Shown: positions 3,870 to 15,973 of the stretch, piece by piece | Numbering within the stretch: the first letter of the stretch is position 1 | How the letters are laid out: every line of letters starts with the position of its first letter | Assembly: GCF_024741795.1 (NCBI RefSeq) | Contig: NZ_CP102950.1 | Span: 4,340,001 to 4,404,000, forward strand | DNA: 64,000 nt | Source of the DNA: Arthrobacter sp. CJ23 | GTDB taxonomy: Bacteria; Actinomycetota; Actinomycetes; Actinomycetales; Micrococcaceae | Reading direction: 5' to 3' | Position numbers and translations under genes: made by a program | Notes under the pieces: generated by a model | Seen by the model: the letters and a program-made list of their open reading frames with translations, nothing else | Database searches by the model: none | What the model was told of the DNA's origin: nothing

Positions 3870-5522
3870 ATGTCCAAAACCACGCCCGTGCGGGCCGCCG
3901 GCGAGGTCCTGACGCACCGTCAGACACTCACGGTCATGGTGGGCCTCATGCTCGGCATGTTCCTGTCCTCCCTTGACCAGACCATCGTCTCGACGTCCAT
4001 CTACACGATCGCCAACGACCTCGACGGGCTGTCCCTGCAGGCGTGGGCCACCACCGCGTACCTCATCACGTCCACGGTGAGCACCCCGCTGTACGGCAAG
4101 CTGAGCGACATCTTCGGCCGCCGCCCGCTGTACCTGGCCGCCATCGTGATCTTCCTGGCCGGCTCGCTGTACGCCGGCTCGGTGCACTCGATGACCGAGC
4201 TGGCCATTGCCCGCGGCATCCAGGGCATGGGCGCGGGCGGCCTGCTGGCCCTCGCACTGACGATCATCGGCGACATCGTGGCACTGAAGGACCGGGCCAA
4301 GTACCAGGGCTACTTCATGTCCGTCTTCGGCATCTCCTCCGTGCTGGGGCCCGTGATCGGCGGCGCCTTCGCGGGCACCTCCACCATCCTGGGCTTCGAC
4401 GGCTGGCGCTGGGTCTTCTTCATCAACCTGCCCATCGGCCTGGCGGCACTCGCCGTCGTGTTCCTCTACCTGCACCTGCCCGCACGGCACGTGAGGCAGA
4501 AGATCGACTACTGGGGCGCGGCCGCCATCACGCTGGCCATTGTGCCGCTGCTGCTCGTGGCCGAACAGGGACGCAGCTGGGGCTTCACCTCGCTGAACTC
4601 CTTCCTGTGCTACGGCCTGGGCGCGATCGGCATCGTCTGGTTCCTGCTCGCCGAAAGGCGCGCCGGCGACTACGCCCTGATCCCGCTGCGGCTCTTCACC
4701 AACATCACCTTCGGCCTGTCCTCGCTGCTGAACTTCATCATCGGCATCGGCATGTTCGGCGCCATCGCGATGCTGCCCATGTACCTGCAGCTCGTCAAGG
4801 GCCTCACGCCCACCGAGGCCGGCCTGATGATGATCACCTTCACCGTGGGCATCCTGTTCGGCTCGATCACCGCTGGCCGCACCATCTCGGCGTCGGGCAC
4901 CTTCCGGATCTTCCCCATCCTCGGCACGGCCATCCTGACGGCGGCTGCCGTGGTCATGGGCCTGTCCCTGGGCGTGGACACCGGACTCTGGGTTCCCGGC
5001 CTGATCGCCGTGTTCTTCGGCATGGGCCTGGGCTTCTGCATGCAGCCGCTCACCCTGGCCATGCAGGTCTCGGTGCCGCCGAAGGACATGGGCGTGGGCA
5101 CTTCCTCCGCGGCCTTCTTCCGCTCCATGGGCGGCGCCGTGGGAACCGCCGTGTTCATCTCCATGCTGTTCAGCCTGGCCGCGGACAAGATCGCCGAGGG
5201 CATGAAGTCCGCGGTGGCGAGCCCGGACTACCAGGCGGTGCTGCGCGACCCGGCCGTGGCAGCGGACCCCGCCAACGCCAAGCTGTACGACTTCTTCAAG
5301 AACGGCGCCAACAACGAGTCGCTCAACGACACCAGCTGGCTGCACTCGGCCAACCCGGTGCTCACCCGGCCCATCACCGAGGGCTTCGCCCAGGCGATCG
5401 ACGCCGTCATGCTCACCGCCGCGGCGCTGACGCTCCTCGCGTTCCTGATCAGCTTCGCGCTGCCGAACAAGAAGCTCACGGACCCGACGGCGGCGCCGAA
5501 GGAATCGGTTTCGGCACACTAG
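3870..5522 (+). CDS. MFS multidrug exporter, DHA2 (EmrB/QacA) family, 14 membrane segments
   Basis: A 550-residue proton-driven exporter of the inner membrane. It shows motif D1 in helix 1 (LSSLDQTIVSTSIYTI), motif A (GKLSDIFGRRPLY) between helices 2 and 3, and the antiporter motif C (VLGPVIGG) in helix 5, which together mark 14-helix drug:proton antiporters. Length and hydrophobic pattern fit the family. The cargo is not predictable. A GGAG ribosome-binding site lies just before the ATG, and the upstream inverted repeats suggest ligand-responsive repression. It converges with the lyase gene at 5547, with only about 25 bases between the two stops. Confidence 0.9.
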   Translation: MSKTTPVRAAGEVLTHRQTLTVMVGLMLGMFLSSLDQTIVSTSIYTIANDLDGLSLQAWATTAYLITSTVSTPLYGKLSDIFGRRPLYLAAIVIFLAGSLYAGSVHSMTELAIARGIQGMGAGGLLALALTIIGDIVALKDRAKYQGYFMSVFGISSVLGPVIGGAFAGTSTILGFDGWRWVFFINLPIGLAALAVVFLYLHLPARHVRQKIDYWGAAAITLAIVPLLLVAEQGRSWGFTSLNSFLCYGLGAIGIVWFLLAERRAGDYALIPLRLFTNITFGLSSLLNFIIGIGMFGAIAMLPMYLQLVKGLTPTEAGLMMITFTVGILFGSITAGRTISASGTFRIFPILGTAILTAAAVVMGLSLGVDTGLWVPGLIAVFFGMGLGFCMQPLTLAMQVSVPPKDMGVGTSSAAFFRSMGGAVGTAVFISMLFSLAADKIAEGMKSAVASPDYQAVLRDPAVAADPANAKLYDFFKNGANNESLNDTSWLHSANPVLTRPITEGFAQAIDAVMLTAAALTLLAFLISFALPNKKLTDPTAAPKESVSAH

Positions 5523-5546: not shown

Positions 5547-6995
5547 TCAGTACGTGGCCCGCACCAGCACGTGCGCCGTATCCAGGTCCCCACGCAGGTC
5601 CCGGTCCTCGACATCGGCGGACAGCGTGAGGCCCGCGGCCATGACGGCGCGAAGCCTTGGGCTGGCGAACTCCCCGGGGCTGCGTCCCTGCAGGCGAAGC
5701 GCCCGGCTGGCGCACAGAAGCTCGACGGCGGTGATGGTCGCCAAGGCGTGCGCGGTGGACTGCAGCTGGACCGTGGCCACGCTGGCAAAACTGGCGTCCT
5801 CCTCGGCGCCGAGTGACAACACCACGGTCTGCAGGCTGCTGGGCTGGGCGTTGGCCCGGATCCGGCCCGCGGCCGCTGCGGCGACGTATTCGAGCATCAT
5901 GACGCCGGACTGTCCGGAGCCGTCGGCGGCCAGGAAAGGGTGCTGGCGCGTGTAGTTGGGGTCGCAGAGGAGGTCGATCCTGCGCAGGCTGGTGGCGCAG
6001 GCGGCCCCGATGGCCAGCTGCAGGGTGTCCGCCCGGCGGGCGAGGTTGGTCATCTGGAACAGGCCGTGGTGCGCTACGTCGTTGGTGCCGTCGGCCGGCG
6101 ATCCGTGGACCAGCGGGTTCTCGTTGCCTGCGGTCACGAGCCGCTCCAACAGCTTCCCGAGGGCTTGGAGTTCCTCGGCTTGGGACCCGATGATCTGCGG
6201 CAGGGTGCGCAGGCAGTAGGGGTCCTGGATCCGGGCGGGGTCTCCTGTTCCTTCGACGAGGACGCGGATTGTCCGGGCCGCTTCGCCGACCGCGGGCGTG
6301 TCTGCGGCAGCTGCCACGGCCGGGCCGAATGCCTCCGTGTTGCCGGACATCGCGACGAAGGACATGGCGGCAACCGTGGTGGCGTTGGCCAGCAGCCGTT
6401 CGAGTTCCTGGTGGGCCAGGACGGCCTGGGCGATGGTGAGGGCGCTCGAGCTGATGAAAGGCAGGGCGTCGGCTGTGGCCCATTGCTCGAGGCGGAAGGG
6501 GAGGGATCCGCCGTCGAGCGGCTTTCGCTCCCCGAGCATGGTCAGCGCCGTCCCGGCAAGGGCGGGGAGATCGGCCGTCCCGATCCCGCCGAATTCGCGG
6601 ACCTCGGGGAGGACATCGGCGTTCAGCAGCTCAGCGAGGGACTCGGCCACGGCCGGGTTGATGCCGGAGCCGCCGGCGGCCAGCTGGGACAGCCGGACCA
6701 CAAGCATGGCGCGGACTGTTGGTCGGTCCAGGGGCCTGCCGGCGTCTACGGCATGGCTGCGGAGCAGTTTGAGTCCATGGGAATCCTGACCGTCGCGTGC
6801 CGAGAGGGACACTGTGCGGTTGGCCCCGACGCCGGTGGACCGGCCGTAGACGGGCCGTCGCCGTGCGGTGGCCTCCGCCGAGCGTTGGGATTCGGCCATC
6901 CGGGCCAAGGCCTCGGGAGAAAGCCTGACCTGTTGGCCGTGGGCCACGTAGACAATGTCCGACAAGTCCAACTGCAGGCCATCGATCTCAATCAT
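5547..6995 (-). CDS. Histidine ammonia-lyase homologue lacking the MIO-forming triad
   Basis: A 482-residue member of the aromatic amino acid lyase (HAL/PAL/TAL) family, about the usual HAL length. Conserved family segments include VYGRSTGVG near residue 70, SHAVDAG, RIQDPYCLRTLPQI, NENPLV, RRIDLL and EEDASF. The Ala-Ser-Gly motif that cyclises to MIO is normally GASGDLAPLA and is here GTA-DLPALA (residues 139-147), with T140, A141 and D142 at the MIO position and one residue missing. The frame is intact on both sides, so this is not a simple sequencing shift. The ATG at 6995 has GGGAG seven bases upstream. It follows urocanase on the same strand but is separated by a 66-base palindrome. It may act without MIO, on a substrate with a better leaving group than ammonia, or be inactive. 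See findings. Confidence 0.8.
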   Translation of the reverse strand: MIEIDGLQLDLSDIVYVAHGQQVRLSPEALARMAESQRSAEATARRRPVYGRSTGVGANRTVSLSARDGQDSHGLKLLRSHAVDAGRPLDRPTVRAMLVVRLSQLAAGGSGINPAVAESLAELLNADVLPEVREFGGIGTADLPALAGTALTMLGERKPLDGGSLPFRLEQWATADALPFISSSALTIAQAVLAHQELERLLANATTVAAMSFVAMSGNTEAFGPAVAAAADTPAVGEAARTIRVLVEGTGDPARIQDPYCLRTLPQIIGSQAEELQALGKLLERLVTAGNENPLVHGSPADGTNDVAHHGLFQMTNLARRADTLQLAIGAACATSLRRIDLLCDPNYTRQHPFLAADGSGQSGVMMLEYVAAAAAGRIRANAQPSSLQTVVLSLGAEEDASFASVATVQLQSTAHALATITAVELLCASRALRLQGRSPGEFASPRLRAVMAAGLTLSADVEDRDLRGDLDTAHVLVRATY

Positions 6996-7050
6996 GGAAT
7001 GCTCCCTTGGAAGTTGCTTGAGTTTCTTGAACCTACCGGCCCCCGCCGTC

Positions 7051-7116
7051 CCCAACTAGGTAGCAGCAAGTGTCGTTTTGAGCGCTCAAAACGACACTTG
7101 CCGCTACCTAGTTGGG
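7051..7116. repeat. 66-base near-perfect palindrome between urocanase and lyase genes
   Basis: Two 33-base arms meet at a GAGC|GCTC centre with no loop and differ at one position only. The outer ends are CCCAACTAGG and CCTAGTTGGG. It lies 17 bases past the urocanase stop and 56 bases before the lyase start. There is no T-tract. It could block readthrough, protect the upstream mRNA 3' end, or be a dispersed palindromic element. Confidence 0.9.
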
Positions 7117-7132
7117 TTCGGATCGCCGGGGG

Positions 7133-8974
7133 CTAGCGGGTTTCGTTCATGGCTGGGCCCCCGTGAACAGGGTTCCCTGGCCGTGGGGCCACACCGGCGA
7201 GGGACCCGGCCTGAGCTTGCGAAGGCTGGGAGCTGGTGGGGACTTGCGAGGCTAGGGGGTTCATGGGGATGCGGACGCCGCGTTCGGCGGCGACCTCGAC
7301 GGCGCGTTCGTAGCCGGCGTCGACGTGGCGGATGACGCCCATGCCGGGGTCGTTGGTGAGGAGGCGCTCGAGCTTCTCGGCAGCGAGGTCCGTACCGTCG
7401 GCCACGGAGACCTGGCCGGTGTGGATGGACCGGCCGATGCCCACGCCGCCGCCGTGGTGGATGGACACCCAGGTGGCGCCGGAGGAGGCGGCGGTCAGGG
7501 CGTTCAGCAGCGGCCAGTCGGCGATCGCGTCGGAGCCGTCCTTCATGGCTTCGGTCTCGCGGTACGGGGAGGCCACGGAGCCGGAGTCGAGGTGGTCACG
7601 GCCGATGACGATCGGGGCCTTGACCTTGCCCTCGGCGACGAGCTTGTTGAAAAGCAGGCCGGCCTGGTGGCGTTCGCCGTAGCCGAGCCAGCAGATCCGG
7701 GCCGGGAGGCCTTCGAACTCCACGCGCTCCTGGGCGGCGTCGATCCACTTGTGCAGGTGCTTGTTCTCCGGGAAGAGCTCCTTGATGGCTTCGTCGGTGA
7801 CGCGGATGTCTTCCGGGTCGCCGGAGAGCGCCACCCAGCGGAACGGGCCCAGGCCCTCGCAGAACAGCGGGCGGATGTAGGCCGGGACGAAGCCGGGGAA
7901 TTCGAACGCCCGCCCGTAGCCGCCCTTGCGTGCTTCGTCACGGATGGAGTTGCCGTAGTCGAAGACCTCGGCGCCGGCGTCCTGGAACTCGACCATGGCC
8001 TGTACGTGGCGGGCCATGGAGGCCTGCGCCTTCTTGGTGAAGCCTTCCGGGTCCGCGGCGGCCTCGGCGTGCCATTCCTCGACGGTGATGCCCTCGGGAA
8101 GGTAGGACAGCGGGTCGTGGGCGGAGGTCTGGTCGGTGACGACGTCGATGCTCAGCTCGCCGGCCTTGTGGCGGCGCAGCAGTTCGGGGAAGACCTCGGC
8201 AGCGTTGCCGACGTAGCCCACGGACCAGCCGCGGCGCTCTTCCTTGGCCTTCTGGACCTTGGCGATGGCGGCGTCCAGGTCGGTCTCGACCTCGTCCAGG
8301 TAGCGCTTGCCGACGCGGCGGCGCAGCCGGGTCTCGTCGACGTCCACGATCAGGCAGGCGCCGTCGTTCAGGGTGACGGCGAGCGGCTGGGCGCCGCCCA
8401 TGCCGCCGCAGCCGCCCGTCAGGGTCAGCGTCCCGGCCAGCGGGCCCTCGGTGGAGCCTTCCGCAGCGGGAGCGGGGTGGCGGCCTTCGGCTGCCAGCTT
8501 GTTGCCGACGGCGGCGAAGGTTTCGTAGGTGCCCTGCAGGATGCCCTGGGTGCCGATGTAGATCCAGGAACCGGCGGTCATCTGCCCGTACATCGTCAGG
8601 CCCTCGGCCTCGAGGCGGCGGAATTCGGGCCACGTTGCCCAGTCCCCGACGAGGTTGGAGTTGGCGATCAGCACGCGCGGGGCCCACTTGTTGGTGCGGA
8701 AGACGCCCACCGGCTTGCCGGACTGGACCAGCAGGGTCTCGTCCTCTTCCATGTCCCTCAGGGTGTCCGCGATCGCGTCGAACGCCTTCCAGGAGCGCGC
8801 GGCGCGGCCGGTGCCGCCGTAGACCACGAGGTCCTCGGGGTGCTCGGCGACCTCGGGATCCAGGTTGTTCATCAGCATGCGCAGCGGCGCTTCGGTCTGC
8901 CAGCTCTTGGCGGACAGCTCCGTGCCGCGGGGCGCCTTGACCGGACGGGTTCCGGTGGTGAAATCGGCAGTCAT
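7133..8974 (-). CDS. hutU: Urocanate hydratase (urocanase)
   Basis: Converts urocanate to 4-imidazolone-5-propionate in the cytoplasm with tightly bound NAD. The 613-residue protein keeps the family's hallmarks: [11 protein letters not shown] near residue 50, [13 protein letters not shown] for NAD binding near residue 195, [19 protein letters not shown] and [16 protein letters not shown] in the C-terminal third. The ATG at 8974 follows a GAGGAG site. Urocanases usually end around RGVRIPM (near residue 571); this one continues for about 42 residues of Ser/Pro/Gln/Gly-rich sequence to NETR. It lies 23 bases after the importer's binding-protein gene and is part of the same minus-strand operon. 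Confidence 0.97.
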
Positions 8975-8997
8975 TGTGTTCTCCTCAAGATTCCGGA

Positions 8998-9909
8998 CTA
9001 TGCCAGGTTCTTCGACTTGAGCCAGTCCTTGGCGATCTGTCCGATGTCCTCGAACTTGGCGGTCCGGCCGTTCATCTGAATCAGGTCTTCGGTGGTCAGC
9101 GCCGCGGAAACCTTGTCCAGAACACTCTTGACCGTGTCCGTGGCCTTCTTCTGGCTGATGACGGGCACGATGTTTTCGGACAAGAACAGGTTCTTGTCGT
9201 CTTCGAGGGCAACCAGGTTGTTGGCGGCGAGTGCAGGATCGGTGCTGAAGAGGTCGGCTACCTGTACCTGGCCGGAAAGGAGGGCGTTCAGCGTGAGCGG
9301 ACCGCCGGCGTCGAGCGCCGAGAATTCCTTGAACTCGAGACCGTAGACGGACTTCAGGCCGGCAACACCGTTGATGCGCGTCTTCCACTCCGGCGGGCCG
9401 CCCAGGACGAGTTCCTTGGCCACGGGCTGGAGGTCGCTGATGGACTTGAGGTTGTGCTTTTCGGCTGTCTCCTTCTTGACGGCCAGGACGTCCTTGTCCT
9501 GTGCCTTCGACGCCGTCAGCTGGGTCAGCCCGGACGGGATCTTGGTGCTCAGCTCCTTGGTGACTTCATCCGAGGTCACCGCCTTGGTGGCGGAGTCGAG
9601 GTACTGAAGGAGGGCTCCGCCGTACTCCGGCATGAGGTCGATGGAGCCGTCCTTCAGCGCCGGAATGGTGACTTCGCGGCTGCCGATGCTGGGCTTCTCG
9701 GTGACCTGGACGCCCTTGGCCTTGAGTGCCTCGGCGTAAATCTTCGCGATGAGCTGGCTTTCCGGGAAGTCGGCGGAGCCCACGATGATGCTGTCCGTGG
9801 AGGCAGCGGCCTGGGAGGTGTTGGAGGAGCCCATGGGGTCTCCGCCGCAAGCACTCAGGGCGATAGCGGTGGCTGCCGCCAAGGCGAAGCCGGGAAGGTA
9901 TTTTTTCAT
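8998..9909 (-). CDS. OpuC/OsmF-type substrate-binding lipoprotein
   Basis: Extracytoplasmic binding protein of a quaternary-amine-type ABC importer, 303 residues. A basic MKK start, hydrophobic stretch and lipobox LSACG show a lipid-anchored secreted protein. The mature part matches the glycine-betaine/choline (ProX/OpuCC/OsmF) class: [18 protein letters not shown] at the start, IDLMPEYGG in the middle and [17 protein letters not shown] later. This class binds trimethylammonium compounds or, in Hut-type systems, histidine. The start at 9909 is chosen over 9954 because the signal peptide begins there. It sits between the permease genes and urocanase, so the cargo is very likely the substrate of the pathway. 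Confidence 0.93.
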
Positions 9910-10025
9910 GTCAATTCTTTCTGGGAGGGCCGTTGCGGGGCATGCGGTGGCCAAGTGGGGGTGGGCTGAGTGGTGTTGCCGCCGTGGGGCGGGGTGCCCG
10001 ACGGCGGATGACGCGGGGTAGCGAG

Positions 10026-10745
10026 CTAGACCGTGACGGGGGTCTTCACGGGTTCGGCTGCAACAGCCGACTTGATGGTGCGCCGCGTCAGTCCTGGTGA
10101 GACAACCCGGCGGGTGATGAATGCGAGCAACTGGTCAAAGAACAGGGCCAGCAAAGCGACCAGGACGGCGCCGGCAACCATCTGGCTGTAGTCGTTCTGG
10201 GCCTTGCCGTCGATCAGCAGGCGGCCCAGGCCACCGAGCGAAATGTACGCCGCGATGGTGGCCGTCGAGATGATCTGCAGCAGTGCACTGCGGACACCGG
10301 ACAAAACCAGCGGAAGCGAGCACGGGAGCTGGACATCCGTGAGGATCTTCATGGTCCGGAAGCCCATGCCCCTGGCGGCGTCGACGGCGGCGGCATCCAC
10401 AGCTCGGACGCCGGCATAGGTGTTGGTCAGGATGGGCGGGACAGCCAGCAGCACCAGGACGATGAGGCTGGGCAGGATGTAGCCCATCTTGGACGGGAAA
10501 GCCGGGGAAATCAGCAGGACCAGCAGGATGAGCAGGCCCACGCTGGGGAGTGCGCGCAAGGCGTTGGCCAGGCCGGCGATCATGAAGACGCCCTTGCCGG
10601 TGACGCCGATGTAGATGCCCAGGGGAACGGCGATGACGGCCGCGATGGCCAGGGCGATGAGCGAGTAGAGCAGGTGCTCGCCGATCAGGTTGGGGATGCC
10701 GTCTGCGCCGCTCCAGTGTGCGGGGTCGAACAAGTAGTTGATCAC
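10026..10745 (-). CDS. OpuC-type ABC permease, second subunit
   Basis: A 239-residue membrane subunit of the betaine-type importer. It starts with GTG at 10745 (VINYLFDP), overlapping the stop of the preceding permease as GTGA; a longer open frame upstream is the shadow of that gene. About five to six membrane helices are visible, and the cytoplasmic EAA-like loop is DAARGMGFRTMKILTDVQLPCSLPLVLSGVR, shown here by its key residues G, M and P. It pairs with the 10742-11392 permease to form the heteromeric channel. Confidence 0.92.
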   Translation of the reverse strand: MINYLFDPAHWSGADGIPNLIGEHLLYSLIALAIAAVIAVPLGIYIGVTGKGVFMIAGLANALRALPSVGLLILLVLLISPAFPSKMGYILPSLIVLVLLAVPPILTNTYAGVRAVDAAAVDAARGMGFRTMKILTDVQLPCSLPLVLSGVRSALLQIISTATIAAYISLGGLGRLLIDGKAQNDYSQMVAGAVLVALLALFFDQLLAFITRRVVSPGLTRRTIKSAVAAEPVKTPVTV

Positions 10746-11392
10746 GATGCCACCACCTTGGGGGTCCACGGTGTCAGCCACCGGTTGAGAAGGATGATCA
10801 GTCCGTCCAGGATCATGGCCAGGACCACGCAGAGGATGATGCCGGCGATGATCGGGGTAAAGAAGCGCAGCTGGAAGCCTTGGGTGAAGAGCGAGCCAAG
10901 CTGCGGGATGCCCAACAGTGCGGCCACGGATACGAGGCTCACGTTGGATACGGCGGCCACGCGCAGGCCGGCGCTGATGACGGGGACACCCACGGGCAGT
11001 TCCACCTTCACCAGGCTTTGGTATCCGCGGTAGCCCATGGCCTTGGCGGCCTGGACGGTGTCCTCGGGAACGGAGTCCAGGGCGTCTGCCACTACGCGCA
11101 CCAGCAGGGCCACGGTGTAGATGGTCAGTGCGGCCACGATGTTCATGGGGTCCAGGATCTTGGTGCCAAGGACCAAGGGCAGCAACACGAACAGCGCAAG
11201 CGACGGAACGGTGTAGAGGAGGCCTGCGACACCCACCAGCAGCGGGTAGATGCGGCGGCTCCGGTGTGCCCACCAGCCCAGGGGCAATGCGATCAGCAGG
11301 CCCAGGATCAGCGGGGTGACGGCCAGCAAGACGTGCCAGCCGAGCAGGAAGACAATGTTGTCGAACTGGCGGCCCAGCCACTCGAAGTTCAT
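10742..11392 (-). CDS. OpuC-type ABC permease, first subunit
   Basis: A 216-residue inner-membrane permease with five to six hydrophobic segments. The BPD-transporter loop AAKAMGYRGYQSLVKVELPV, near residues 125-145, is the contact site for the ATPase. The start codon overlaps the stop of the ATPase gene (ATGA), showing translational coupling. Together with the second permease, the ATPase and the binding lipoprotein it makes a complete importer. Confidence 0.93.
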   Translation of the reverse strand: MNFEWLGRQFDNIVFLLGWHVLLAVTPLILGLLIALPLGWWAHRSRRIYPLLVGVAGLLYTVPSLALFVLLPLVLGTKILDPMNIVAALTIYTVALLVRVVADALDSVPEDTVQAAKAMGYRGYQSLVKVELPVGVPVISAGLRVAAVSNVSLVSVAALLGIPQLGSLFTQGFQLRFFTPIIAGIILCVVLAMILDGLIILLNRWLTPWTPKVVAS

Positions 11393-12495
11393 CGCGCCGT
11401 CTCCAGGTGTGGCTCGGCTTCAATGGCCTTGACGACGTCCGTGGCAGTCACGGTGCCGATCAGTTCGCCGTGCTCATTGACCACCACGCCGCGGCGGCTG
11501 GGCGAGGAGAGGGCGGCGTCGAGCAGCTGGCGCATGGTGCCGGATGCGGCCGCCGAGGTGCCGCTGAGGTTCAGGTGCTCCCTCTTCAGCTCACCATCGA
11601 GAAGCTCCGGCTGCGCCCAGCCGAGAGGCTTCCGGCCGCCGTCGACTACCAACACCCAAGCACCCGAGGCCTTGGCGCGGGCCTCTTCCGCAGAAGCGCC
11701 GAGCTGGACCACGGCCTCTTCGCCGATGGCCACAGCCCCGGCCGTCTTGGTGAAACCGAGCGAGCGGTAGCCGCGGTCACGGCCGACGAAGTCCGCCACG
11801 AATTCATCCGCCGGCGAGGTGAGCAGCTCCGACGGGGAAGCCATCTGGGCCAGCTTGCCGCCGACGCGCATCACGGCAACCTGGTCGCCGAGCTTGAGGG
11901 CTTCATCGATGTCGTGGGTGACCATGATGATGGTCTTGCCGATCTCGCGCTGCAGGCGAAGGAACTCCTCCTGCAGCTGCCCGCGGACCACGGGATCCAC
12001 GGCGCTGAAAGGCTCATCCATCAGCATGAACGCCGGGTCGGAAGCCAGGGCACGGGCAACGCCAACGCGCTGCTGCTGGCCACCGGAGAGCTGCCACGGG
12101 TAACGCTTGGCGAAACTGGCGGGCAGGCCGACGCGCTCCATCAGTTCAAGCGCCTTGGTGCGGGCCTTCTGCCGGCTCTCGCCCAGCAGGACCGGCATGG
12201 TGGCGACGTTGTCCACGATGGTGCGGTGCGGGAAGAGTCCGGCGTGCTGGATGACGTAGCCGATCCTGCGTCGAAGCAACGCTGCGTCCATGCCGGAGGT
12301 GGGCTGGTCATCCAGGTAGATGGTGCCGCTGGTGGGTTCGATGAGGCGGTTGATCATCCTCAAGGACGTCGTCTTGCCGCAGCCTGACGGGCCAACCAAG
12401 ATGGTCAGCTTGCCGGTGGGCGCCTCCAGATTGAGGCCGTCGACGGCGACAGTACCGTCGGGGTATGCCTTGGTGACATTTTCAAACTTGATCAT
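11389..12495 (-). CDS. OpuCA/ProV-type ABC ATPase with C-terminal CBS domain
   Basis: A 368-residue energising subunit of the importer. Walker A is GPSGCGKT near residue 36, the signature LSGGQQQR near residue 140, Walker B FMLMDEP and the switch histidine in VTHDIDEA. The family-typical LRRRIGYVIQHAGLFPH follows Walker A. After residue 250 a regulatory CBS region is present, including RRGVVVNEHGELIGTVT. In known betaine transporters CBS domains sense ionic strength or nucleotides; whether this one does is unknown. The ATG overlaps the IclR stop (ATGA), so regulator and transporter are co-transcribed. Confidence 0.95.
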   Translation of the reverse strand: MIKFENVTKAYPDGTVAVDGLNLEAPTGKLTILVGPSGCGKTTSLRMINRLIEPTSGTIYLDDQPTSGMDAALLRRRIGYVIQHAGLFPHRTIVDNVATMPVLLGESRQKARTKALELMERVGLPASFAKRYPWQLSGGQQQRVGVARALASDPAFMLMDEPFSAVDPVVRGQLQEEFLRLQREIGKTIIMVTHDIDEALKLGDQVAVMRVGGKLAQMASPSELLTSPADEFVADFVGRDRGYRSLGFTKTAGAVAIGEEAVVQLGASAEEARAKASGAWVLVVDGGRKPLGWAQPELLDGELKREHLNLSGTSAAASGTMRQLLDAALSSPSRRGVVVNEHGELIGTVTATDVVKAIEAEPHLETAR

Positions 12496-13178
12496 TTTGC
12501 TTCCATGCTTTCCTGGGGTAGCTCATGGTTTTCGGTGTTCAGTGTGAGGACGTTGTCAGCTTCCTCCACCAGTTGCTGGCCGATCTTGAGGGCCTTCAGC
12601 TCGTCCACGCGGTAGCTGGGAACCACGATGCTCAAGGAAGCCACCGTCCGTCCCCCCATGACCACCGGCGCGGCGATGGCCGTGACGTCGTCCTCCACAC
12701 CGCTCCGCACCACGGCAAAGCCACGCTCGGGCTGTTCGCCCTTGAGTACTTGGCCGGAGGCTGTGCCTTCGAGCGGGATGCTCCGCCCCACCCAGCTGGA
12801 GTGCCTGATCGAATGAGTGCCCTCAACAATCGCGATGTAGATTCCCGTGTCCCCAACCCCGGGAATGCTCAGATAGCAGGATTCGCGCGTTTCAGCGACG
12901 AGTCGCTTCATGGCGGGTGTGCACAACGCCACGAGCGATTCTTTGCCGAGAGCCAGTGCACCCAGCTGGATGATGCTGGCGCCGGGGCGGAAGTTCCCGC
13001 CGCCGTCCCTGGAGACAAAGCCGCTGCCTTCAAGCGTGCGCAGGAGGCGAAGGGCGGTGCTTGGCGAGAGGTCCGCGAACCTCGCGGCATCGCTCAGGGC
13101 AATGGCTCCTTCGGAACAAACTGCTCCCAAGAGGGCGAGCGCCCTCTCTACTGTCCGGGTGGAGGAATCTGCCATCAC
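12492..13178 (-). CDS. IclR-family regulator of the cluster
   Basis: A 228-residue regulator with an N-terminal winged helix (TVERALALLGAV, then LSDAARFADLSPSTALRLLR) and a C-terminal effector domain (IPLEGTASGQVLKGE, then VVRSGVEDDVTAIAAPV). This layout is standard for IclR proteins that bind small catabolites. It is the first gene of the minus-strand operon and is divergent from the amidohydrolase gene. The intergenic region carries two inverted copies of a 20-base motif that may be its binding sites. Control of both arms of the cluster is likely. Confidence 0.93.
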   Translation of the reverse strand: MMADSSTRTVERALALLGAVCSEGAIALSDAARFADLSPSTALRLLRTLEGSGFVSRDGGGNFRPGASIIQLGALALGKESLVALCTPAMKRLVAETRESCYLSIPGVGDTGIYIAIVEGTHSIRHSSWVGRSIPLEGTASGQVLKGEQPERGFAVVRSGVEDDVTAIAAPVVMGGRTVASLSIVVPSYRVDELKALKIGQQLVEEADNVLTLNTENHELPQESMEAK

Positions 13179-13215
13179 ACACCTTCACTTTCCGTGGCCC
13201 ACATCACAACCTTCT

Positions 13216-13235
13216 TGCCATCCAGTAAAAACCAC
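13216..13235 (-). promoter_or_regulatory. 20-base motif, copy facing the IclR operon
   Basis: Read on the minus strand this is GTGGTTTTTACTGGATGGCA, 38-57 bases upstream of the IclR start. It matches the plus-strand motif at 13380-13399 in 17 of 20 positions. Candidate operator or promoter element shared by both arms of the divergent cluster. Confidence 0.6.
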
Positions 13236-13379
13236 TTTTCACACCACGGCAAGAGGTTTCGCCAAATTTCCTGAGATTCCGGGATTTGAGACGCTGCACG
13301 TCACCGGGAGGTGTCGGCGGTGTTTCGGGGCTGTTAATTGTGCCGGTTTTCCACTCAAGCCCTTGTCATGGAGTGGCAT

Positions 13380-13399
13380 GTGCTTTTTACTTGGTGGCA
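13380..13399 (+). promoter_or_regulatory. 20-base motif, copy facing the amidohydrolase operon
   Basis: GTGCTTTTTACTTGGTGGCA lies 23-42 bases before the amidohydrolase GTG start, in inverted orientation to the copy at 13216-13235 and with 17 of 20 positions identical. The matching placement on each side argues for a common regulator, most simply the IclR protein. Confidence 0.6.
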
Positions 13400-13421
13400 G
13401 TCTTCAACATCGGAGGAACAC

Positions 13422-14621
13422 GTGGAAACCGTTAATAAGCTCCTTGACTCGATCAAGGACGTAGGCCGCGATGCGGTGCGCGGAGGTTACTCCAGGGCCG
13501 TCTACTCGACGCCCGAGCTCGACCTCAGGCACTGGTTCATCGAGCAGGCCCAACAGCGCGGCCTCGACGTCGAGACCGACCGCAACGGGATCATCTGGGC
13601 CTGGTGGGGAAAACCCCACGACGGCGCCCTGGTCACCGGCAGCCACCTCGATTCAGTCCCGGGCGGAGGAGCATTCGACGGACCGCTCGGCGTCGCTTCG
13701 GCGCTGGCCGCCGTCGATATCCTCAAGGCGCGCGGAGTTCAGCCGCCGCGCTCTTTGGCCATCACGGTCTTCCCGGAGGAAGAAGGGTCCCGCTTTGGTG
13801 TGGCCTGCCTGGGGTCGCGGCTCCTGACCGGGGCCATCGACGTCCACAAGGCGCTGAACCTGCGCGACGTCAACGGCGATACTTTCGCCGACGTCGCGCG
13901 GGGCAACGGGCTGGATCCCCGGCATGTCGGCCCCGATCCGGAGGCTTTGGCACGGATCGGCGACTTCGTTGAATTGCACGTGGAACAGGGCAAGGGGCTG
14001 GGGCAGGGCGGGCCGGCCATCGCCGTCGGAAGCTCGATCCTGGGCCATGGACGCTGGAAAATGAGCGTGGGCGGCCAAGGTAACCACGCCGGCACCACCC
14101 TCATGGCCGACCGCTCCGATCCGATGGTGGCGGCCGCGCAGATCGTACTCGCCGTGCGCGATATCGCCGCGAAGCAGCCGGATGCCCGGGCAACCGTCGG
14201 CCGCTTGACGCCCGTCCCGGGCGGTACCAATGTGATCGCGTCGCGCGTCGATCTGTGGCTTGATGCCCGCCACCCGGACGACGCCGTGACGGCGCAACTC
14301 ATCGAAGCGATCTACCGTTCGGCCAGGGAAGTCGCGGCTGGCGAAGGATGCACGGTGACCCTCACCGAGGAGTCGTATAGCGATACCGTGCACTTCGATG
14401 CCGAGCTGAGCCGACGCATCAGCGGGGTCCTGCCGGGCGCTCCCGTGCTGGCAACCGGCGCAGGGCACGACGCGGGCGTGCTGGCCGGATACGTTCCCTC
14501 CGCGATGCTCTTTGTCCGCAATCCCAGCGGAATCTCGCATTCGCCGGAAGAGTACGTGGCTGACGAGGACGCCTCGGCCGGCGCGGCTGCCCTGGCGGAT
14601 GTTCTGGAGGAACTTCTGTGA
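13422..14621 (+). CDS. M20-family Zn amidohydrolase (allantoate / N-carbamoyl-amino-acid hydrolase type)
   Basis: A 399-residue cytoplasmic hydrolase of the AllC/HyuC branch of peptidase family M20. Metal ligands are visible in VTGSHLDSVPGGGAFDG, FPEEEGSRFG, ELHVEQG and GAGHDAG, and the dimerisation-domain motif is GNHAGTTLM. The GTG at 13422 with GGAGG five bases upstream is the chosen start; the frame is open further upstream without a good site. The enzyme removes an N-carbamoyl, formyl-like or ureido group. Overlap with hutF (GTGA) makes deformylation of N-formylglutamate, or hydrolysis of N-carbamoylglutamate, the likely job here. This is inferred from context. Confidence 0.9.
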   Translation: METVNKLLDSIKDVGRDAVRGGYSRAVYSTPELDLRHWFIEQAQQRGLDVETDRNGIIWAWWGKPHDGALVTGSHLDSVPGGGAFDGPLGVASALAAVDILKARGVQPPRSLAITVFPEEEGSRFGVACLGSRLLTGAIDVHKALNLRDVNGDTFADVARGNGLDPRHVGPDPEALARIGDFVELHVEQGKGLGQGGPAIAVGSSILGHGRWKMSVGGQGNHAGTTLMADRSDPMVAAAQIVLAVRDIAAKQPDARATVGRLTPVPGGTNVIASRVDLWLDARHPDDAVTAQLIEAIYRSAREVAAGEGCTVTLTEESYSDTVHFDAELSRRISGVLPGAPVLATGAGHDAGVLAGYVPSAMLFVRNPSGISHSPEEYVADEDASAGAAALADVLEELL

Positions 14622-15973
14622 ACGGGTTCTGGTGCGAGAGTGCCCTCATCACAGTCAACGGCGGCACGGGCGCTCCGGAAGTGGCCGCCGGCGTACGCCT
14701 GGAGACACAGGACGGCCGCATCTCGAACATCACCACGGGAGTCCAGCCCCAGCAAGGTGATACGAAACTGCTTGGCATAACCTTCCCGGCAGCGGCCAAC
14801 GCCCATTCGCACGCTTTCCACAGAGTCCTGCGCGGGCGTACCCATGACGGTCGCGGAGACTTCTGGGTGTGGCGGGAGCAGATGTACCGGAGCGCGTCCG
14901 AGCTGACTCCGGAGAAATACGAGAAGCTGGCCACTGCCGTCTTCGCTGAAATGGTGGTAGCCGGCTTCAGCAGTGTGGCCGAATTCCACTATGTCCACCA
15001 CCAGCTCAGCGGCGCACCCTATGCTGAACCGCATGCCATGGAGCTGGCCCTCGTCCGGGCGGCAATGTCAGCCGGGATCCGCCTCACCCTCTTGGACACT
15101 TTGTATCTGGCCGGAGGAATTGGAACGCCACTCAGCCCCGAACAGGCAAGGTTCGGGGACGCCGGTGTCGAAGCCTGGCTGGACCGCCTCTCCTCGCTTC
15201 GGACTGCGATAGCGAAGGACTATTCACCGGATCTCGTGAGCGTGGGTGCTGCCCTGCATTCCGTCCGTGCCGTGCCCGAAGAAGACCTCAAGGTTGTTGC
15301 CCGGGAGTTGCCTGCCGATATCCCCCTCCACATCCACCTGAGCGAACAACCCGCGGAAAACGAAGCCTGCCTGGAGGCCTACGGCACCACCCCGGCCGGA
15401 CTCTTGGAGCGCCACGGGCTGCTGTCCCAAAGGCTCTCCGCCGTCCACGCCACGCACCTGACGCACGACGACATCGCCCTGCTCGGAAAAGCCGGGGCAA
15501 CCGTGGTGATGTGCCCAAGCACCGAGGCCGACCTCGCGGACGGGATCGGCCCCGCAAGGGAGCTTTCCGACGCCGGAGCCGCCATAGCCCTCGGCACGGA
15601 CCAGCACGCGGTGATCGATCCCTGGATTGAAATGCGGACGCTGGAACACGGGGAACGCCTGGGCACCGGGCAGCGCGGCAGGTTCTCCCCGCAGGAACTG
15701 CTGCGGGCCGCAACGGATGGGGCCGCACGATCCATGGCCACCCCCATCGCTTCCTCGGCGCTGCACATCGGCGCAGTCTGTGACCTCATGGTCATCGATC
15801 CCGCTTCGACCCGCACCGCCGGATCCCGGCCGCTCCAGATGACCTTCAGTGCGACTGCGAGCGACGTTACCGACGTCGTCATCGCCGGAGAGCTGCTCGC
15901 TTCCCAAGGCGTGCACAGGCGCCTCGGCAGGCCGGGCAGCCTCCTGACCGAAGCGTTGAAGGAGCTCTCCTAG
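14618..15973 (+). CDS. hutF: Formimidoylglutamate deiminase
   Basis: A 451-residue amidohydrolase-superfamily enzyme converting N-formimino-L-glutamate to N-formyl-L-glutamate and ammonia. It shows NAHSHAFHRVLRGR near residue 60 (metal-binding HxH), VAEFHYVHH, HIHLSEQ, VHATHL and the late aspartate in LGTDQHA, a pattern specific to HutF among close relatives. The GTG start overlaps the stop of the M20 gene. HutF marks the five-step histidine route that ends with a deformylase, which is not present as a classical HutG. No imidazolonepropionase (HutI) gene occurs in the window, so that step must be encoded elsewhere if the pathway is complete. Confidence 0.94.
   Translation: MNGFWCESALITVNGGTGAPEVAAGVRLETQDGRISNITTGVQPQQGDTKLLGITFPAAANAHSHAFHRVLRGRTHDGRGDFWVWREQMYRSASELTPEKYEKLATAVFAEMVVAGFSSVAEFHYVHHQLSGAPYAEPHAMELALVRAAMSAGIRLTLLDTLYLAGGIGTPLSPEQARFGDAGVEAWLDRLSSLRTAIAKDYSPDLVSVGAALHSVRAVPEEDLKVVARELPADIPLHIHLSEQPAENEACLEAYGTTPAGLLERHGLLSQRLSAVHATHLTHDDIALLGKAGATVVMCPSTEADLADGIGPARELSDAGAAIALGTDQHAVIDPWIEMRTLEHGERLGTGQRGRFSPQELLRAATDGAARSMATPIASSALHIGAVCDLMVIDPASTRTAGSRPLQMTFSATASDVTDVVIAGELLASQGVHRRLGRPGSLLTEALKELS

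Follow-up and report, generated by a model that had tools for sequence, protein, structure and literature searches.

A conserved Arthrobacter gene cluster with a MIO-less relative of histidine ammonia-lyase and a betaine-type importer: a candidate module for scavenging histidine derivatives, possibly hercynine

A real, conserved and under-described gene cluster is present in Arthrobacter sp. CJ23 and, judged from its sequence, probably works like an ergothionase-type elimination that feeds the hut pathway. It lies in a 64-kb window, the whole stretch of DNA analyzed, which is part of a 4.63-Mb genome. The explanation that is tentatively proposed here, and that is held at a little under even confidence, is that the cluster is a scavenging module with hercynine (N-alpha-trimethylhistidine, histidine betaine) as its most likely substrate. 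An F-III ABC importer would bring in not free histidine but a derivative of it that bears an imidazole, and a lyase lacking MIO would eliminate the alpha-nitrogen group of this derivative to give urocanate, without the MIO electrophile, because this group would leave more easily than ammonium. From hercynine, urocanate and trimethylamine would be formed, and HutU2, HutI (encoded elsewhere), HutF and an M20 amidohydrolase would convert urocanate to glutamate. The general form of this proposal, in which urocanate is made from a histidine derivative, is considered fairly probable; that hercynine itself is the substrate is quite possible, at somewhat less than an even chance.

The genes are arranged in two divergent operons. 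The minus-strand operon has the order IclR-type regulator (12492..13178), ABC ATPase of the ProV family with a weak CBS match (11389..12495), ABC permease A (10742..11392), ABC permease B (10026..10772), OpuAC-type (F-III) substrate-binding lipoprotein (8998..9906; PF04069, 174 bits), urocanase hutU2 (7133..8974; TIGR01228, 877 bits, cut-off 375) and a MIO-less HAL-superfamily lyase of 482 aa (5547..6995, ATG start at 6995; PF00221, 312 bits). The regulator and the permeases were assigned by profile matches, and the binding protein likely starts with the ATG at 9906, the longest ORF being read from 9954. The plus-strand operon comprises an M20 amidohydrolase of the allantoate amidohydrolase/carbamoylase type (13422..14621; 613 bits, cut-off 372), with a likely GTG start at 13422, and hutF, encoding formimidoylglutamate deiminase (14618..15973; 544 bits, cut-off 362). 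The M20 enzyme would act as N-formylglutamate hydrolase. Neighboring genes overlap by 4, 4, 31 and 4 nt or are separated by gaps of 23, 71 and 137 nt, the gap of 137 nt being the hutU2/lyase interval. All cluster genes named in the first-pass annotation could be recovered by ORF calls and profile matches. In the hutU2/lyase interval, a long inverted repeat of 68 nt was observed (7050..7117, unstranded), the 34-nt core of which an exact-pattern search finds at a single place in the genome; similar hairpins are found at the same position in L034, L029 and L030, and many relatives are without one. A DHA2-type efflux MFS gene (window positions 3870-5522) is convergent with the lyase gene, and such a gene, 90-93% conserved, adjoins the lyase at several Paenarthrobacter and Arthrobacter loci.

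At the MIO site, the lyase carries G-T-A-D-L, where HutH of P. putida has G-A-S-G-D-L and HutH of the same genome has G-C-S-G-D-L. The motif GT[A/G/S/P]DL was found in 118 of the 120 lyase homologues listed; the other two are P0119, with GTGDM, and P0089, a fragment of 325 residues. In a pattern check, the MIO-type motif [A/C]SGD[L/I] was absent from the window lyase and from 120/120 listed homologues, which bears out the earlier reading of a HAL homologue without the MIO triad. The lyase further differs from HutH, which is encoded elsewhere in the genome, by N195S and by its score of 244.7 bits against the curated hutH model TIGR01225, under the cut-off of 539.15. The formation of a Thr-based MIO-like group from G-T-A/G was also considered; in P0082 the third position is Pro, so cyclisation to such a group should be blocked. 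Public sources label many lyase homologues as histidine ammonia-lyase or aromatic amino acid lyase, and with these names histidine catabolism may be over-called.

The HutH residues Y53, H83, Q277, R283 and E414 are retained in 35/35 lyase orthologues; H83 and E414 presumably contact the imidazole and R283 the carboxylate (HutH numbering). Values of dN/dS were between 0.084 and 0.207 in 9/9 pairs, thus the lyase is under purifying selection, and these values together with the invariant residues ruled out that it is a pseudogene. New to the lyase clade are H325, H326 and E385. In the phylogenetic tree that had been suggested as a check, the lyase forms a clade of its own, separate from the MIO enzymes and from the ergothionases compared; a grouping of the lyase with the ergothionases is not seen in the tree and was not rejected by a tree test (p-AU 0.405). 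The closest relatives are of the Arthrobacter/Paenarthrobacter type. Two other lyases were observed in this comparison: a HAL of Promicromonospora that adjoins the importer (L046:2720-4255), with a hutH score of 515 bits, no MIO triad and G in place of F329, and a sister of the lyase at 43% in L061 (G201:C22), in which S replaces H83. A D-amino-acid dehydrogenase and a different ABC system are found in the neighborhood of the latter, and the binding protein of the cluster recurs as an orphan ∼10 kb away.

The function of MIO is the expulsion of ammonia. To our knowledge, ergothionase is the only MIO-less HAL relative that has been studied, and its leaving group is trimethylammonium. What this relative expels is trimethylamine. 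The lyase, the urocanase and the linkage would all be accounted for by a histidine derivative whose alpha-nitrogen group leaves readily and which gives urocanate, and on chemical grounds hercynine would be the leading candidate. A trimethylamine-handling gene could not be recognised in the cluster. The first-pass annotation had described ergothionase as a lyase that releases trimethylamine without MIO, and PMC13405746 agrees with this.

The lyase and ergothionase have in common the HAL fold, the deletion at the MIO site, N195S and H83/R283/E414. In a sample of 18 ergothionases, E143, L280 and E330 were found in 18/18 and K386 in 17/18 (HutH numbering), whereas each of the four was found in 0/35 lyase orthologues. 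Compared with the ergothionase of Treponema denticola (PDB 6s7j), the lyase has T instead of E at position 143 and no E at position 330, the orthologues have Y or F (one A) instead of L at 280 and Y (one A) instead of K at 386, and H325 and E385 are new. The gene next to the lyase encodes a true urocanase and not a thiourocanate hydratase: HutU2 scored 623.7 bits with the thiourocanate hydratase model, under its 930-bit cut-off, and no protein exceeded this cut-off in the 149 genomes of the family (0/149). The M20 protein scored 269.2 bits with the model of ErtE (N-carbamyl-glutamate amidohydrolase), under the cut-off of 520. On the urocanase and M20 models and on the lyase residues, the ergothioneine pathway was set aside. 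The first-pass proposal is thus supported in part: its route via ergothioneine and thiourocanate is not supported, but its MIO-less HAL relative, the dedicated importer and the route from urocanate onward are, in a genome that retains hutH and hutI. By residues and model scores, the cluster is neither an ergothionase nor a HutH system. The genome encodes four PF00221 proteins in all, among them a second MIO-less HAL with G-S-S-D-L (L017:7451-9001, C1:4183552), which adjoins an NtaA/DmoA-type FMN monooxygenase, a pair also found in G200; among solved structures, this HAL matches ergothionase (162 bits) about as well as HAL (176 bits).

HutU2, for which the TIGR01228 score confirmed the earlier call of an intact urocanase, is 99.65% identical in protein over 571 aa and 99.0% in DNA to HutU1, which is encoded beside the canonical HutH (hutU-hutH pair at C1:396102-399274). 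This identity makes urocanate the most likely product of the lyase. Within-genome pairs of hutU show 96.4-99.0% likeness in four genomes and 92.2% in G177, where the canonical copy is in pieces; between genomes, hutU is 84-94% alike in partial comparisons. The likeness of paired copies stops near the gene ends, and gene conversion between them is likely, which would argue for one substrate, urocanate. Draft contigs are broken inside the hutU beside the lyase in L019, L020, L022, L024, L028 and L031 (also G190 and G201), a pattern that near-identical hutU copies would produce by misleading the assembler. One hutI is present at C1:1481552 (304.8 bits, cut-off 298), so that the search proposed earlier for a second hutH and a hutI elsewhere in the genome found both, and the cluster as sole hut system was rejected. 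Like actinobacterial hut operons with HutF and M20 (such as L069 and L087), the system comprises HutU, M20, HutF and, somewhere in the genome, HutI, but a MIO-less lyase replaces HutH and the cluster has its own importer and its own IclR regulator.

Among 61 genomes of the genus, canonical HutH was found in 61/61 (intact in 60, in pieces in G177), and HutF in 13/61, six of them without the lyase; as hutH is present in all, most must complete histidine breakdown in another way. The ubiquity of hutH would be compatible with plain histidine use, in which histidine would enter through the importer and be degraded by a true HutH acting in trans, the lyase being a paralogue with a regulatory role or with no activity, and the acidic binding pocket described below would suit a free amino group. 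This reading is nevertheless the least probable of those considered, as the lyase is under purifying selection with pocket residues invariant in 35/35 orthologues, and as its linkage to the importer persists at loci without nearby hut genes (L085, L089-L091).

The binding protein is a member of the betaine family (OpuAC-type, F-III), and together with the two permeases and the ProV-family ATPase it substantiates the betaine-type ABC importer noted in the first-pass annotation. The histidine importer HutXWV has a one-permease architecture; the window has two permease genes. For EgtUC, PMC9732360 describes a cage of Y341, Y419, Y443 and F293 with N339, carboxylate contacts by K242, T296 and R379, and an imidazole contact by E375. 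In an alignment-only comparison of 25 binding proteins (18 + 7) with EgtUC, E375 (imidazole) and R379 (carboxylate) were kept in 25/25. Cage position 293 is Y in 25/25, 419 is F in 24 and Y in 1, 341 is D in 24 and N in 1, and 443 is E in 18 and Q in 7; position 296, T in EgtUC, is A or V. In the window binding protein, 2/4 cage positions are aromatic (293 Y, 419 F), with D at 341 and E at 443. A binding-protein paralogue of the same genome has T375, but D341 and Q443 as well, thus the loss of the cage is not special to the cluster, and E375 is. The window protein resembles EgtU and the AfProX/OpuC (F-III QAC) binding proteins in its OpuAC fold family, E375 and R379, and differs in that two of four cage aromatics are replaced by D and E/Q; in contrast to EgtU, it is separate and not fused to a permease, and the importer has two permeases.

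The comparison with EgtU ligand residues had been suggested at the outset, and its outcome was divided: the alignment points to an imidazole carboxylate as ligand, the nitrogen of which would lie in a pocket with more acidic and fewer aromatic residues than a typical cage, and the two lost aromatics weaken the betaine reading. The same module might act on a different histidine derivative, one whose alpha-ammonium group is free or only in part methylated (for example Nalpha,Nalpha-dimethylhistidine) or one that has another leaving group; urocanate would again be formed, and the new H325/H326/E385 would help the elimination. This is favored by the greater acidity and lower aromaticity of the pocket relative to EgtUC and by the residues new to the lyase clade; however, no abundant substrate of this kind is obvious, and the studied MIO-less relative uses a trimethylammonium leaving group (PMC13405746). 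Such a substrate is considered rather unlikely.

In the genus sample, a binding protein of the cluster type (at least 84% identity) was identified in 7/61 genomes, and the lyase in the same 7/61, in pieces in G177; G201 has an extra, orphan binding protein of this type. In a class sample, the binding protein was found with an E-value of at most 1e-85 in 8/394 genomes, window included, and the lyase adjoins it in 7/8; at L086, the importer is present and no lyase was found within 19.5 kb. At L085 and L089-L091, importer and lyase occur, and a search of 17-19.5 kb found no hut gene; at L087 and L088 they lie beside a complete HutH-HutU-M20-HutF-HutI operon, and one locus of Sediminivirga (L043) has a MIO-type HutH in addition to importer and lyase. 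As the lyase occurs beside complete HutH operons or without nearby hut genes, it is not simply a stand-in for HutH. Among 32 lyase-homologue loci, 8 were cut off by contig ends; in the 24 with a visible neighborhood, the importer was present in 17 and absent in 7 (L037, L039, L040, L041, L044, L045, L048). In one Pseudarthrobacter (L048:3666-6376), an NMT1-type ABC importer replaces the OpuC-type and adjoins hutU and a lyase, which is visible only as two tblastn pieces.

The loci without a nearby hut gene (L085, L089-L091, and those in Kocuria, Rothia and Nocardiopsis) and the 43% relative in G201, with its S for H83 and its different neighbors, would also agree with a lyase product other than urocanate, the hut genes being neighbors for another reason. 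This is regarded as improbable, because H83 and E414 are kept in 35/35 orthologues and because the linkage of the lyase to hutU, M20, hutF and hutI recurs in distant genera (L043, L047, L050, L087, L088). In addition, hutU was found somewhere in all 9/9 distant genomes searched, although hutU is common (urocanase-type match in 125/149 genomes of the family). With respect to hercynine as substrate, no EgtD match was found in the 7/7 genus genomes with the cluster, so there would be no futile cycle there; two lyase-bearing Nocardiopsis genomes differ in this respect, EgtD exceeding the cut-off in one and being represented in the other by pieces that score below it.

Upstream of the M20 gene, a motif TTTTTACTTGGTGGCAG was identified (13384..13400, plus strand) that is identical at 10 distinct loci (an alignment of 11 rows, L025 and L072 being the same), and an inverted and looser copy precedes the IclR gene (13214..13231, minus strand). 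The looser pattern occurs only at these two sites in the window. It was absent from the 19 kb scanned at the canonical hut locus (L015); of six loci that have M20 and hutF but no lyase, two carry it before M20 (L064, L067); and it occurred in 0/14 of the other relatives' loci scanned, distant loci included. The two copies are putative operators of the IclR protein, which may mediate induction of the cluster.

PMC8550315 names hercynine as one of the quaternary ammonium compounds of soil. Histidine betaine released by a soil cyanobacterium was depleted in intact biocrust, and none of the isolates tested, one Arthrobacter included, took it up (PMC4595634). A hercynine lyase was not named in the literature searched, most subscription journals being outside its coverage. 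More speculatively than the proposal as a whole, the cluster may represent a third way in which the HAL superfamily achieves catalysis without MIO: its lyase would release trimethylamine from hercynine by means of a new His/Glu residue set and be served by an importer of its own, and the whole would be the first dedicated histidine-betaine catabolic module. On its sequence, the lyase clade appears to be a further case, besides ergothionase, of an ammonia-lyase fold that works without MIO. The cluster is a gene set in culturable soil bacteria that is a candidate for the role of histidine-betaine consumer and, if the proposal is true, a hercynine lyase module could explain the unknown consumers of histidine betaine in soil.
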